The notes under the pieces were generated by a model. The model searched no databases. It had not been told where the DNA came from and saw nothing but the letters and a program-made list of their open reading frames with translations. Below are positions 3,972-10,097 of a stretch of 64,000 bases of DNA, one piece after another (the stretch's first letter is position 1; each line of letters starts with the position of its first letter). Source of the DNA: Streptosporangium sp. NBC_01495 (GTDB taxonomy: Bacteria; Actinomycetota; Actinomycetes; Streptosporangiales; Streptosporangiaceae); contig NZ_CP109430.1 of the NCBI RefSeq assembly GCF_036250735.1, forward strand, positions 5,704,001 through 5,768,000. The letters are read 5' to 3'. A program made the translations under genes and the position numbers.

Positions 3972-5897
3972 TCAGCGGGCCGCCTGGAAGGCGCGGCCCG
4001 CGCGGGTGACGGTCCCGTCGCTGCGGAACAGCCCGCTGTTGGGCTCGGTGTCCGAGGAGGGCAGGCCGAACCAGGCGTAGCGCCGCACGTACGGCAGGGA
4101 GGCGAGCATCTTGGTGGAGGCGGTGACGAACGCGGCCTGCTGGGCGTCGCTGGCGTAGCGGGTGCCGTTCGAGAAGTCGATCAGGGCGTACTCGGTGAGC
4201 CAGATCGGCTTGCGGTAGCGCTGGTACACGGCCTGGATGTACGACTTGAGCTGGTTCACCGCGGGCTGGGGGCGGAAGTCCGCCCCGTACCAGTGCAGCG
4301 CGATGAAGTCGACGCGGTAGCCCCGCTCCTCCGCTCCGGACATGAAGCGGTCCAGCCAGCCGCCCGGGGTGTCGGCGCCGAACGCGACGGAGGGGCTGCT
4401 GAGCACGCGGCCCGCGGACATGAGTTTCGGCCAGAGCGACAGCGCCTCCTCCACGGTCATGTTGGCCTGCTGGGGCAGGTCGGGCTCGTTGAAGGCGAGC
4501 AGGTAGGGTCCGGCGCTCCTGGCCTGGGCGAGGTTCTCCGGGGTGACGCTGCCCGATCCCCAGATCATCGGGACGAATCCGTCCGCCCTGGGGCCGGTGA
4601 CGCCCTCTCGACGGGTGGACCAGGTGTAGTACCAGCTCGCGCCGGACTTCGCGAGGGCCGAGCCGACGCCGGGCATCTTCCACACGCCGACGCCCTTCCT
4701 GGGGGAGGTGACGACGGCGGGGGGCGGCGGGGCCGGCGTGGGCGTGCGGGAGGCCTTCTTGCGGCTGGGGGTGGGGGACGGGGAGGGCTTGGGCGTGGCG
4801 CGCTCCGACGGCGTCCGCGACGGAGGTGGCGGCGACGGCGAGGCCGTCTGCGCGGGTACGGCCAGCGGCGGGGCGGGCTCGGGGGCGGGGGCCGTGAGCT
4901 GCCCGAACACCAGGACGCCGGTGACGATCACGGCCGCCGCGCCGCCGATCGTGATCGGGGCGGGGGGCAGGGAGGCCAGCAGGCCCGGCCGCGTCGTCTC
5001 GAGGGCGTGCGCGCCGTGGGAGGCGCCCCAGGAGGTGGCGTGCGCCACCGCCTCGACGGCGGAGGGAACGGCCTGGAGGTGGTGCATGGCGAAGCCGACC
5101 GGCAGGGGCAGCAGCGGCAGCCCGCTGAGCAGCCGGTCGATGGGCAGCAGGTTCGCGGTGCGTCCCTGGCAGACGGCGCAGTCGCGGATGTGCCGGGCGA
5201 AGCGCTTGCGCCACAGCGGGCTGGGGATGCCGTTCCAGTTCGCGGTGAGGGCGTGCAGCTCGCGGCATCCGGAGTCGGCGCGCAGCGCCCGCACGATGGT
5301 GCGGGCCGTCTGGACCTGCTCCTTCATCCGCTGGACGCGTACGGCGGCGTGGCGCCCCGACAGGCCGAGGGCTCCGGCCAGGTCGGCGCGGCCGAGCTCG
5401 CCGGTCTCCTCCAGCCACCACAGGGCGAGAAGCGCCTGGTCGTCGCCGTCCAGCCAGCGGGTGGCCTCGGCGACCTCGCGGCGCTGGTCGGTGAGCCCGA
5501 GCCGCAGGATGGTCACGGCGGCGAAGTCGGAAGCGGGGTCGGGCATCTCCTCGGCGGTGTCGAGGTCGGCCCTGCGGTGCTGGGTGGTCCTGCGGTCCTG
5601 CTCGTGGTCGCGCACCTGGCGGACGGCGATGGCCACCAGCCAGGACCGGTACGCCTGCGGGTCCCGCAGGTCGGGCAGCGCGCGGACGACCCGGAGGAAC
5701 GTCTCCTGGACCACGTCGTCGACGTCGGTGTGGCCGTTCAGCGCTCGCCCGACGATGTTGTAGACGAGCGGGAGGGAGTCGGCCACCAGGGCGTCCAGCG
5801 CCTGCTGGTCTCCGTCGCGCGCGGCGGCCACCATCGCCGTGTCGGGTCCGCCCCTGCCGGTTCCGAGCATCGCACTCCGCTTCCTGTCGTCGTCCAC
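3972..5897 (-). CDS. ECF sigma factor fused to zinc-finger segment, TM helix and extracellular GH128 glucanase
   Basis: One 641-residue chain spanning the membrane. Residues about 12-105 are sigma region 2 (DVDDVVQETFLRVVRALPDLRDPQAY) and about 140-195 sigma region 4. A zinc-finger-like H236-x3-C240-x2-C243 resembles the ZAS motif of anti-sigma factors. Residues 314-335 form one TM helix, 337-400 a Pro/Ser/Thr linker, and 402-641 a glycosyl hydrolase of the GH128/Asl1-like type (beta-1,3-glucan cleavage) with both expected glutamates, E471 in FNEPD and E569 in WLTEY. The GTG start follows GGGGAGGA; ATGs at 5960 and 5870 are alternatives. The sigma domain would be cytoplasmic and the glucanase outside, implying glycan-controlled transcription (inference). 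Actinobacterial ECF groups with large C-terminal extensions are known. Confidence 0.88.
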   Translation of the reverse strand: MDDDRKRSAMLGTGRGGPDTAMVAAARDGDQQALDALVADSLPLVYNIVGRALNGHTDVDDVVQETFLRVVRALPDLRDPQAYRSWLVAIAVRQVRDHEQDRRTTQHRRADLDTAEEMPDPASDFAAVTILRLGLTDQRREVAEATRWLDGDDQALLALWWLEETGELGRADLAGALGLSGRHAAVRVQRMKEQVQTARTIVRALRADSGCRELHALTANWNGIPSPLWRKRFARHIRDCAVCQGRTANLLPIDRLLSGLPLLPLPVGFAMHHLQAVPSAVEAVAHATSWGASHGAHALETTRPGLLASLPPAPITIGGAAAVIVTGVLVFGQLTAPAPEPAPPLAVPAQTASPSPPPPSRTPSERATPKPSPSPTPSRKKASRTPTPAPPPPAVVTSPRKGVGVWKMPGVGSALAKSGASWYYTWSTRREGVTGPRADGFVPMIWGSGSVTPENLAQARSAGPYLLAFNEPDLPQQANMTVEEALSLWPKLMSAGRVLSSPSVAFGADTPGGWLDRFMSGAEERGYRVDFIALHWYGADFRPQPAVNQLKSYIQAVYQRYRKPIWLTEYALIDFSNGTRYASDAQQAAFVTASTKMLASLPYVRRYAWFGLPSSDTEPNSGLFRSDGTVTRAGRAFQAAR

Positions 5898-6054
5898 GGT
5901 CCGTCCTCCCCGCGCCACGCCAGGCGCCGGGCAGGGACGATTCTCTCCATAACTCCTCATAGCGGAAGACCGACGAGCCCCCTCTATGGAGACCGGCGGC
6001 AGGTCAGGTGGACAACGAAAATTTTCTTCGTCCTTTTTTTAGGTTTTTGTTGTC

Positions 6055-6110
6055 ACCCGTCCTCCCACGGGTCTCCTGTACAGGAGCAGAACACGCCCGG
6101 CGCCGGGCGT
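6055..6110. promoter_or_regulatory. Three adjacent inverted repeats in the sigma-GH128/DUF1996 gap
   Basis: Three perfect palindromic elements are packed into 56 bp: ACCCGT-N6-ACGGGT (6055-6072), CTCCTGTACAGGAG (6073-6086) and ACGCCCGGCGCCGGGCGT (6093-6110). A T-rich stretch precedes them (about 6021-6052). They are probable operators or hairpins of the 610-bp gap 5898-6507, which holds no gene I can support with confidence. Confidence 0.5.
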
Positions 6111-6507: not shown

Positions 6508-7992
6508 ATGAGTGAGACTGTTCCGCGCACCACGGCCCCTGGTCGCAGATCGGGCAGGCGAGTCCACCGCTTCGCGCTCACCGGCGCCCTCGCGACCATC
6601 CTGGGTGCCTCGCTGGTGAACGGCGTCCTTCCGGCCAGCGCGGCCGAGGTCCCGCTGTCGCAGAGTGGCAAGGCCACCGCCTCCTCGTCCGAGAGGGGCG
6701 ACCTGTCCGCCTCGGCGGCGATCGACGGCAAGGAGAACACCCGCTGGTCGAGCGCCTTCAGTGACCCCCAGTGGCTCCAGGTCGACCTGGGCGCGTCCAA
6801 GGCGATCGAGAAGATCGTGCTGAACTGGGAGAACGCCTACGCCACGGCCTTCACGATCCAGACCTCCGCCGGTGGCGGCCAGTGGAAGACGATCCACACC
6901 ACGACCGCGGGCAAGGGCGGCGTGCAGACCCTGAACGTCTCGGCCACCGGCCGCTACGTACGGCTCAACGCCACCAAGCGCTCCTCCCGGTACGGGGTCT
7001 CGCTGTGGGAGTTCGAGGTCTACGGCACCGGCTCGGGCACCGCCACCCCGAAGCCGAGCACCACCCCTACCGACCCCAGCACCACTCCCAAGCCGAGCAC
7101 CACCCCGAAGCCCAGCACCACCCCTACCGACCCCAGCACCACTCCCAAGCCGAGCACCACCCCGAAGCCGAGCACCACACCGACCACGCCGGCTCCCGGC
7201 GGTAACCTGCCCAAGGGCCCGGTTCCGCCCGGCGCGGTGCGGGTCGCGGAGTTCGTCGCCGAGTGCCCCTACACCCACCGGCTGCCCGACGACCCGATCG
7301 TGATGCCGGGCCTCGCCGGCGGGTCGCACATGCACAGCTTCTTCGGCAACACCTCCACAGACGCCAACTCCGACGTCGAGAGCCTGCTGAAGGCCGGTAC
7401 CACCTGCAGCCCGAAGACCGACCTCTCCTCGTACTGGGTGCCGACCCTCTACAGCGACGACAAGCCCGTCGAGCCGACCGGCACCACGTTCTACTACCTG
7501 GGTGAGGGCATCAAGGACGAGCTGATGGCCCAGACCCGGCCGCTGCCGCTGGGCCTGCGGATCGTGGCCGGCAACGCCAAGGCCACCCAGCCCGACGCCG
7601 GCAGCAACGCGCGCTGGTCGTGCCTGCACGCCGGTGAGGTGGGTTCCTCCAAGAACTTCGTCAACTGCCCGGCCGGCAAGATGCTGGAGTCCTACCTGGA
7701 CTTCCCGCACTGCTGGAACGGCGAGGACCTGGACTCCCCCGACCACAAGAGCCACATGTCCTACCCGGTGAACGGCGCCTGCCCGGCCTCGCACCCGGTG
7801 ATCGTGCCCAAGCTGCGCCAGGTGCTGCGCTATCCGGTCAGCGGCGACCCGGCCAAGTTCCGGCTCTCGTCGGGCCCCGGATTCACCATGCACGGTGACT
7901 TCTTCAACGCCTGGCCCGAGGCCGAAATGGAGCGCCGCGTGCGCGACTGCATCCGCCCGATCGTCAAGTGCGGCGCCGACGGCACCCCCTGA
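6508..7992 (+). CDS. Secreted discoidin (F5/8 type C) plus DUF1996 protein
   Basis: A 494-residue exported protein. A twin-Arg-like basic start and hydrophobic segment (about residues 20-46, ending ASAAE) form the signal peptide. Residues about 48-172 are a discoidin/F5-8C carbohydrate-binding domain (DLSASAAIDGKENTRWSS, QWLQVDLGASKAIEKI). A Thr/Pro linker made of 19-residue repeats follows, then a DUF1996 domain (about 240-490) with conserved His, Trp and Cys (GGSHMHSFFGN, FPHCWNGEDLDSPDHKSHMSYP). DUF1996 is common in secreted fungal and actinomycete proteins and is often linked to polysaccharide; its catalytic activity is unproven. Its position beside the sigma-glucanase gene makes it a candidate target of that regulator. 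Confidence 0.88.
   Translation: MSETVPRTTAPGRRSGRRVHRFALTGALATILGASLVNGVLPASAAEVPLSQSGKATASSSERGDLSASAAIDGKENTRWSSAFSDPQWLQVDLGASKAIEKIVLNWENAYATAFTIQTSAGGGQWKTIHTTTAGKGGVQTLNVSATGRYVRLNATKRSSRYGVSLWEFEVYGTGSGTATPKPSTTPTDPSTTPKPSTTPKPSTTPTDPSTTPKPSTTPKPSTTPTTPAPGGNLPKGPVPPGAVRVAEFVAECPYTHRLPDDPIVMPGLAGGSHMHSFFGNTSTDANSDVESLLKAGTTCSPKTDLSSYWVPTLYSDDKPVEPTGTTFYYLGEGIKDELMAQTRPLPLGLRIVAGNAKATQPDAGSNARWSCLHAGEVGSSKNFVNCPAGKMLESYLDFPHCWNGEDLDSPDHKSHMSYPVNGACPASHPVIVPKLRQVLRYPVSGDPAKFRLSSGPGFTMHGDFFNAWPEAEMERRVRDCIRPIVKCGADGTP
7062..7178 (+). repeat. 57-bp in-frame repeat encoding a Thr/Pro linker
   Basis: Two nearly identical 57-bp units plus a partial third encode TTPTDPSTTPKPSTTPKPS twice, between the discoidin and DUF1996 domains. 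Such linkers are typically extended and often glycosylated in actinomycetes. Confidence 0.85.
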
Positions 7993-8103: not shown

Positions 8104-8703
8104 ATGAAGGCGTCCACGATCGGTGCATCGGTGCTCGTCGTACTCACCGTGCTGCTGGTCTCGCGATGTGTCGCCGCCGAGCCGCAGACCCATTCGGCCA
8201 CGAATCACCCACCGTCGCGAAGCGGTCCCGCCGCGCTTCCCACACCGACCGGAAGCGCGTCGGGCCCCTTCAACGGCACCGACATCGCGTGGTTGCAGCT
8301 GATGATCCCGATGACCGAGCAGGCGGCACGCCTGCTGGAACTGGCCCCCGGCAAGACCTCGAATCCGAAGCTCAGGCGGTTCGCCGAGGAGCACGTCGCC
8401 GATCGCCGCACGACGCTCCGGGAACTGCGCGACCTGCTGCGGCGGTCCGGGGTGCCGGAGAGCAACGAGCACGAGGGGCATGACATACCGGGCATGGTGA
8501 TTCCCAACGACTTCGCGGCCCTGAAGCGGGCCGACGGCGCCGCGTTCGACCGGCTCTTCACCAAGGACGCGCGCGAATATCTCACGCAGTCCGTCCTGGT
8601 CGCGAAGGGCCTGCAGAAATCCGGCGCCGACCCGGAGACCAAGGCGTTCGCCGCCGCCCTGGAGAAAACCTACAGCGGCCAGCTTCCCCGGCTGGAGCCG
8701 TGA
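8104..8703 (+). CDS. DUF305 family exported protein
   Basis: A 199-residue secreted or membrane-anchored protein. An N-terminal hydrophobic helix (about residues 5-24) is followed by a Ser/Pro-rich stretch and a DUF305 four-helix domain (about 55-195). It has IAWLQLMIPMTEQAARLLELA, where family members usually carry a His-rich M-x2-H-H-xQA motif. Here the His residues of that first helix are replaced (MIPMTEQA), so a metal role is doubtful, although HEGHD remains near residue 122. Its stop overlaps the GTG start of the reductase gene, so the two are translationally coupled. It may be an accessory protein of that redox enzyme. Confidence 0.78.
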   Translation: MKASTIGASVLVVLTVLLVSRCVAAEPQTHSATNHPPSRSGPAALPTPTGSASGPFNGTDIAWLQLMIPMTEQAARLLELAPGKTSNPKLRRFAEEHVADRRTTLRELRDLLRRSGVPESNEHEGHDIPGMVIPNDFAALKRADGAAFDRLFTKDAREYLTQSVLVAKGLQKSGADPETKAFAAALEKTYSGQLPRLEP

Positions 8704-10097
8704 GAGGCGCCGCCCCCGATTCCGGCACGCGCCCGCACCCCGCCGCGCGTACGCGGCGGCACGGGACCCCCGCCCGCCCGCCCGCGCGCCGGGCGCGGCC
8801 GTCCCTGGTCCTCGCCCTGATCGGCGCCGGAGCCGTCGCGGCGACCGCGACGTGCTGGTCCGACATGACCTCGGTCTCCGGGTTCACCGGGGCACTGGCC
8901 TGGGCGGGCAGGCTCACCGGCATGCTCGCGGGCTACGCCTGCGCCGTCCTGCTGGGGCTGATGGCCCGCGTTCCCGCTCTGGACCGCGGGGTCGGAACCG
9001 ACCGGCTGGCCCGCTGGCACGCCACGGGCGGCCGCCACACCATCGTCCTGTCGGTGGCCCACATGCTGTTCGCCGTCGCGGCCCACGTGGCGCGATCCGG
9101 CGCGGGCGTGCTGGAGGGGACCGCGGGGCTGATCCTGGACGGCCCGGCCATGCTGGAGGCGACGCTCGCCCTCCTGCTGCTGACCGGCGTCGCGGTCGTC
9201 TCGGTGCGCGCGGTGCGGCGCCGGATGCGGTACGAGATCTGGCACTACCTGCACTTCGTCACCTACGGGGCCGTCTTCCTCGGGTTCGGCCACCAGCTCA
9301 CCGGCCCGGACTTCGCCGGCAGCGCCGTCATGAGCGTGTTCTGGTACGCGCTGTACGTGTCCGTCGCCGCCCTGCTGGTCTGGTACCGCTTCCTCACCCC
9401 CGTCCACCGCGCCCTGCGTCACCGGCTGCGGGTCGCCGGGGTCCGCAGGGAGTCGTCCTCCGTGGTGTCGGTCTACCTGACCGGCGAGCACCTGGACGAG
9501 CTGGGCGCCGAGCCCGGCCAGTTCTTCCGGTGGCGGTTCCTCGCCCCCGGCATGTGGTGGACGGCCAACCCCTACTCGCTGTCGGCCCCCGCCAACGACC
9601 GCTTCCTGCGGATCACCGTCAAGGACGTCGGCGACCACAGCGGCGCGCTGGCCGGGCTGCGGCCCGGCACCCGCGTGTGGGCCGAGGGTCCCTACGGGGC
9701 CCTCACCGCCGCGCGGCGCCGCAGGCCCCAGGTGCTGCTGGTCGGTGGCGGCGTGGGGATCAGCCCGCTGCGCGCGCTCTTCGAGACGCTGCCCGGCGAG
9801 GTGACCCTGGTCTACATGGCACGCCGTGACGAGGAGCTGATCCTCCGCGACGAGCTGGACGCCATCGCCGCCGCACGCGGCGCCAAGATCCACTACACCG
9901 TGGACGAGCTGACCGGATCGTCCGGTAAGCGGAGCGTGCCGCTGACCGGACGCGCCCTGCGGACCCTCATCCCCGGCCTGGCCGTCCACGACGTCTACCT
10001 GTGCGGCCCCGCCGGGATGACGGTCGCGGCACGCCAGGCCCTGCGCCGCGCGGGCGTGCCCGGCCGCCGTATCCACGTGGAGTCGTTCGACTTCTGA
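8700..10097 (+). CDS. Ferric-reductase-like transmembrane oxidoreductase (FAD/NAD binding)
   Basis: A 465-residue membrane flavocytochrome-type protein. About six hydrophobic helices (residues 33-225) contain the paired histidines expected to hold haem (WHATGGRHTIVLSVAHMLFAVAAH and WHYLHFVTYGAVFLGFGH). The C-terminal half is a ferredoxin-NADP reductase module: FAD motif NPYSLSAPAND, NAD-binding VGGGVGISPLRALF and the terminal LCGPAGM. It should move electrons from NAD(P)H through FAD and haem across the membrane, as in ferric reductases and NADPH oxidases; the acceptor is unknown. The GTG start overlaps the DUF305 stop. Confidence 0.87.
   Translation: MRGAAPDSGTRPHPAARTRRHGTPARPPARRARPSLVLALIGAGAVAATATCWSDMTSVSGFTGALAWAGRLTGMLAGYACAVLLGLMARVPALDRGVGTDRLARWHATGGRHTIVLSVAHMLFAVAAHVARSGAGVLEGTAGLILDGPAMLEATLALLLLTGVAVVSVRAVRRRMRYEIWHYLHFVTYGAVFLGFGHQLTGPDFAGSAVMSVFWYALYVSVAALLVWYRFLTPVHRALRHRLRVAGVRRESSSVVSVYLTGEHLDELGAEPGQFFRWRFLAPGMWWTANPYSLSAPANDRFLRITVKDVGDHSGALAGLRPGTRVWAEGPYGALTAARRRRPQVLLVGGGVGISPLRALFETLPGEVTLVYMARRDEELILRDELDAIAAARGAKIHYTVDELTGSSGKRSVPLTGRALRTLIPGLAVHDVYLCGPAGMTVAARQALRRAGVPGRRIHVESFDF

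Follow-up and report, generated by a model that had tools for sequence, protein, structure and literature searches.

One unbroken reading frame in the window (the 64,000-nucleotide stretch of Streptosporangium sp. NBC_01495 DNA analyzed here) encodes an ECF sigma factor joined on a single chain to a ZAS-like zinc anti-sigma segment, a transmembrane (TM) helix, a Pro-rich stalk and a GH128 domain. We consider it probable (roughly 70%) that this protein is an autoinhibited, membrane-tethered sigma factor that senses β-1,3-glucan through its own GH128 domain and activates its own gene together with a small secreted, glucan-directed set. According to this model, the fused zinc ZAS segment would keep the N-terminal ECF sigma inactive at the inner face of the membrane, while the TM helix and the stalk would display the GH128 domain on the outside. 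When this domain binds or cleaves a β-1,3-glucan, the stalk or the juxtamembrane region would change, and the chain would be cut or opened, freeing the sigma. The freed sigma would then read promoters of the form TTNNGTTRTCN-N14/15-SGTCTCC at its own gene and at the genes of the secreted set, predicted to comprise a discoidin-GH128 glucanase and discoidin-DUF1996 proteins, with thaumatin-like proteins in some relatives.

The frame runs on the minus strand from position 5960 to 3972 of the window and specifies 662 amino acids from ATG 5960, from which all residue numbers of the protein are counted here. The true start is likely to be ATG 5870 (632 amino acids), because a good ribosome site (GGAAGCGGAG) precedes it and because conservation among the 18 homologues compared begins there, at about residue 31. 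GTG 5897, chosen in an earlier sequence-only reading, is a possible start. That reading had described the one-chain fusion at this place, without stating the strand, and every part that it listed was found at the coordinates given. Sigma region 2 (5592–5789, minus strand, as are all parts of the protein; residues 58–123) matched PF04542 with E = 1e-12, and the NCBIfam profile TIGR02937 spanned regions 2 and 4 (residues 54–218), both above cut-off. Region 4, with its HTH (5307–5489; residues ≈158–218), was placed from TIGR02937, the helices of an AlphaFold model and the match of that model to SigW. The ZAS-like segment follows at 5091–5279. The single TM helix (4896–4961; residues ≈334–355) corresponds to the sole clear hydropathy peak (residues 334–352; 2.1 over 19 residues), and the Pro/Ser/Thr linker is recognizable from its composition as a Pro/Ser/Thr/Ala-rich, wall-spanning stalk (4707–4895; residues 356–418) with 23 Pro among 63 residues. 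The homologues also have a linker, variable in sequence. The C-terminal GH128 domain (3987–4652; residues 437–658) matched PF11790, Glyco_hydro_cc, with E = 3e-50.

Homologues were gathered by searching first the genus and the family with PF11790 and then, without taxonomic restriction, with the sigma–ZAS part; 52 distinct sigma–GH128 fusions entered the tree. They come from the Streptosporangiaceae, where the intact fusion was found in many genera, and from the Streptomycetaceae, Micromonosporaceae, Frankiaceae and Actinospicaceae. Two draft Streptomyces homologues (L085:5956-7813 and L114:5812-8222) carry the sigma and GH128 parts in two overlapping frames, reflecting either a sequencing error or a broken gene. 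Such a frame break between the parts is what one would expect if an assembly or frame error had joined two genes. However, the fusion is intact in more than 50 homologues from five actinobacterial families, so that an artefact is refuted in practice and deserves virtually no weight; neither separate genes nor a frame error, the two outcomes against which the sequence-only reading had warned, was present at the window locus. Where a member of the GH128 clade of the sigma tree has no GH128, its sequence is truncated by the end of a contig. A Frankia MAG (L067:5575-10123) carries a tandem pair of sigma–GH128 genes, of which the second has diverged strongly (sigma branch ≈1.0).

In the closest sister group, from Streptomyces, the sigma, ZAS, TM and stalk parts are retained and the chain ends in a CAP domain (PF00188), which suggests that the outer domain is exchangeable. 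These CAP-type sigmas form one group in the sigma tree. The CAP-ended, PR-1-like siblings are found at Streptomyces loci L089–L124 (for example L121:6001-7677). The Streptosporangium genome itself has no second close paralogue of the sigma (next best E = 2e-14, compared to 1.6e-131). Two further ECF sigmas in this genome (L210, C1:1804417; L214, C1:10338575) have an H-x3-C-x2-C segment and a long Pro-rich C-terminal tail on one chain.

The H-x3-C-x2-C motif noticed in the sequence-only reading corresponds to H257, C261 and C264. These residues and an upstream cysteine, C232, are invariant in the 57 aligned sigma–ZAS sequences (C195, H220, C224 and C227 of A3), and the invariance of C232 extends the motif to a full four-ligand ZAS site. 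An AlphaFold model of residues 38–290, made with a 57-row alignment, had a mean pLDDT of 80 and a pTM of 0.69. The sigma fold matched SigW and SigE; the best structural match was SigW as bound to the zinc anti-sigma RsiW (5wur), with Z = 13.9 over 156 residues at 3.0 Å, covering both sigma domains, whereas RNAP-bound sigmas fitted a single domain of the model, or the pair of domains only with an rmsd of 27 Å. The predicted model thus shares the closed sigma2/sigma4 arrangement of SigW–RsiW (5wur/5wuq), a fit in keeping with a sigma that is kept shut by its fused ZAS segment. Since the matches listed by the structure search mostly span model residues 1–186, they reveal little about the ZAS segment itself. 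SigW–RsiW differs in having a separate anti-sigma protein and another outer domain and signal. Here, the ZAS segment with its four invariant ligands is fused to the sigma, so that a partner anti-sigma gene is unnecessary, as had been proposed.

The ECF53 group is reportedly due to the surveys Huang 2015 and Casas-Pastor 2021. The architecture is of a known kind, since surveys already describe such sigma factors, and glycosyl hydrolase-bearing members of ECF52/ECF53 were first listed some ten years ago. Reviews bear out the statement in the sequence-only reading that actinobacterial ECF groups with large C-terminal extensions, ECF52 and ECF53, exist (PMC8999054, PMC10766802): ECF48, ECF52 and ECF53 of Actinobacteria have ZAS and TM extensions, with release by proteolysis expected (PMC8999054), and some ECF52/ECF53 members have predicted, unvalidated glycosyl hydrolase catalytic domains (PMC10766802), to be compared with the Pfam name “Glycosyl hydrolase catalytic core” of the domain found here. 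The window protein shares with ECF53 the actinobacterial ECF sigma, the C-terminal zinc-finger/ZAS segment, the TM helix and the large extension (PMC8999054, PMC10766802), and it probably belongs to this group, an assignment based on the architecture as the reviews describe it. Membership in ECF52 was considered and rejected: the SCO4117-like sigma–NPCBM proteins of Streptomyces aligned only at E ≥ 0.002, with a branch > 5, and Pfam found no NPCBM domain in the window protein. Our literature search, which did not extend to the original group surveys, turned up no experimental work on the protein or on its group, and nothing on the group's promoter, regulon or divergent partner. The predicted promoter and regulon of the sigma–GH128 type are what the present analysis adds, not found in the literature and not certainly new.

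GH128 enzymes cleave β-1,3-glucan, for example curdlan (PMC10956234). The best PDB match of the GH128 domain was AmGH128_I (6uaq; E = 1e-81, 57.4% identity), and both catalytic glutamates, already noted in the sequence-only reading, are present: the acid/base E492 (4485–4487) and the nucleophile E590 (4191–4193). PDB entry 6ufl carries Q at the position aligned with E590, which we read as an inactivating mutant. Both residues are invariant in 17 fusions, and both Glu motifs are retained in 41 further, partly overlapping fusions; one fusion that escaped the Glu search pattern reads LNEPD. Within a genome, the GH128 domains of the sensor and of the secreted protein share 67–80% identity. Secreted and fused domains fall on opposite sides of one branch, the support for which is weak (44/91), and we therefore make no claim about the order of fusion.

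A mirrored bipartite element was read in the intergenic DNA in both directions and refined to the form given above. The candidate −35/−10 promoter of the sigma gene (TTTCGTTGTCC-N15-GGTCTCC; 5988–6020, minus strand) suggests autoregulation. The copy on the plus strand (TTTTGTTGTCA-N14-GGTCTCC; 6045–6076) is the candidate promoter of the divergent gene (6508–7992, plus strand), a predicted target coding for a secreted protein with an F5/8 type C (discoidin) domain (PF00754), a Pro/Thr linker and DUF1996 (PF09362). When the 11.1-Mb genome was scanned with a slightly looser pattern, TTNNGTTRTCNN{14,16}SGTCTC, four sites were found (control, 0), preceding the sigma gene, the divergent discoidin-DUF1996 gene, a discoidin-GH128 paralogue (C1:2408257) and a second discoidin-DUF1996 gene (C1:3053360). 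A shorter pattern, GTTGTC...SGTCTCC without the upstream TT, was discarded; it gave 13 matches in this genome (control, 1), mostly with no TT or with longer spacers.

Among 19 GH128-bearing relatives, 17 genomes had a site, and 32 of their 35 sites (control, 0) precede sigma–GH128 (5), discoidin-GH128 (8), discoidin-DUF1996 (16) or thaumatin-like (3) genes. The remaining three precede a DUF305/DUF4142 lipoprotein gene of a kind also present in the window locus and a truncated discoidin gene, or have no clear gene. In family genomes lacking a full-length GH128 match, 31 of 32 had no site. The exception, L208 (G005), is located antisense inside a small ORF that looks conserved; we attribute it to chance. 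The motif was originally derived from a few of these very loci, in genomes that are related to one another; the site counts are therefore not independent, and the difference between 17/19 and 1/32 genomes (Fisher p = 2e-10) is descriptive only. Fourteen sites were found in 15 genomes of other families, before six sigma–GH128 genes, three thaumatin (PF00314) genes, three genes for PATR-repeat secreted proteins and two alginate-lyase-like genes. Of 59 GH128-type sigma genes, 47 are preceded by the element (≤1 mismatch) at a distance of no more than 250 bp, against a background of at most 3%; the 12 without a recognizable upstream copy include those of G007 and G014, where it is missing on the side that faces the sigma gene. 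Some start codons lie only 4–6 nt past the element, as in leaderless mRNAs. The element thus lies before the sigma gene and its presumptive targets and is rare elsewhere, the pattern predicted for an autoregulated regulon, and we infer that it is the promoter of the sigma–GH128 factor.

It could instead be the site of another regulator or sigma, with the sigma–GH128 protein controlling something else. The same element is found upstream of 24 of 30 CAP-type sigma genes at ≤1 mismatch, so the specificity may be shared between the siblings, and in Streptomyces paradoxus, which was found via its CAP-type sigma, a site precedes an unrelated secreted gene. We nevertheless regard control by another factor as quite unlikely: the element has the form and spacing of an ECF promoter, lies 4–90 nt from many starts and tracks the sigma–GH128 genes across genomes, and the Streptosporangium genome has no second close paralogue, as noted above. 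In Streptomyces L178, L179, L183, L185 and L186, alginate-lyase-like (PF05426) and PATR-repeat secreted genes start 5–6 nt after the element, in a leaderless-like arrangement; the CAP-type sibling sigma, alone or together with the GH128 type, may control these genes.

The predicted regulon backs the suggestion of the sequence-only reading that glucan is the likely signal of the tethered sigma. Thaumatin-like proteins bind β-1,3-glucans (PMC6272156); a glucan role of DUF1996 is not proved. The glucan might be fungal, and a curdlan-type glucan of bacterial or algal origin is also possible. Alternatively, the protein might sense the cell's own envelope or development, with GH128 acting on a glucan of the cell's own making or of the matrix, not on a foreign or fungal one. 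The hosts are mycelial, sporulating actinobacteria, and SCO4117 (ECF52), a sigma of similar architecture, controls differentiation in Streptomyces coelicolor and affects sporulation (PMC5826349). It has the same order of sigma, zinc finger, TM helix, Pro-rich stalk and carbohydrate-linked outer domain, and release by proteolysis has likewise been proposed for it (PMC5826349). However, the SCO4117-type sigma is only remotely related: the sequences are barely alignable, its outer domain is NPCBM, and its proposed promoter motif is CSGYN-17bps-SRHA (PMC5826349). Moreover, the predicted regulon consists of the sigma and secreted, mostly glucan-linked genes and contains no development genes. Sensing of the cell's own envelope or development is thus unlikely.

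Redox sensing is known from some ZAS proteins, for example RsrA. The GH128 domain could be simply a cell-anchored digestive enzyme, in line with its retained catalytic glutamates, while the fused sigma answers another cue, such as redox or zinc, via the ZAS segment. We find this highly improbable, since the regulon encodes the sensor's own GH128 fold, at the 67–80% identity given above, as in the RsgI6/Xyn10D pair, and the replacement of the outer domain by CAP with the sigma–ZAS part kept fits a sensor module. Retention of the glutamates need not mean that catalysis matters, because the GH10 domain of RsgI6 has very low activity.

Clostridium thermocellum SigI6/RsgI6 provides a precedent for the proposed glucan-sensing sigma–GH128 protein. 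There, the outer GH10 domain of RsgI6 binds xylan, the sigma controls its own gene, and xylanases are among its targets, one of them 57% identical to the sensor (PMC4711584). An outside glycoside hydrolase as polysaccharide sensor, autoregulation and a regulon that encodes enzymes of the sensor's own family are predicted here from sequence. The two systems differ in that SigI6/RsgI6 consists of two proteins, a SigI-family sigma and an RsgI anti-sigma, with GH10 and xylan in place of one chain with GH128 and β-1,3-glucan. IutY of Pseudomonas putida (ECF243) is a sigma fused to a membrane anti-sigma and is freed by Prc/RseP; it differs in responding to a siderophore via cell-surface signalling, with no carbohydrate (PMC8999054). 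The RsgI pathway also involves RseP cleavage (PMC12203970). By analogy with IutY and RsgI, the sigma–GH128 chain may be released by intramembrane proteolysis.

A more specific version of this model, which we hold only tentatively and at somewhat less than even odds, is a fungus-detecting switch, in which GH128 would read β-1,3-glucan and induce a compact group of antifungal proteins (GH128 glucanase, thaumatin-like and discoidin-DUF1996 proteins), while the siblings carry CAP instead. If so, three of the protein classes would parallel the pathogenesis-related proteins of plants: the glucanase PR-2, thaumatin PR-5 and CAP PR-1. Given the promoter element and a predicted regulon of two to four genes, one reporter strain would be enough to test the group, and the way in which soil actinobacteria may perceive β-1,3-glucan, from fungi or elsewhere, becomes open to study.

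The place of the divergent neighbor is occupied by discoidin-GH128 in two genomes of the same genus (G007 and G014) and in Sphaerisporangium, and by a thaumatin-like gene in Planotetraspora. The syntenic secreted partner thus varies in its C-terminal domain or identity, between DUF1996, GH128 and thaumatin-like (window vs. L012, L013, L051 and L046). A DUF305/DUF4142 lipoprotein-like gene (8104–8703, plus strand) lies 3′ of the divergent target and might be co-transcribed with it, a tentative suggestion; in G093, no other gene stands between the promoter element and its homologue. Further 3′, the window encodes a ferric-reductase-like membrane protein (8700–10097, plus strand), and similar genes follow in L013 and L049.
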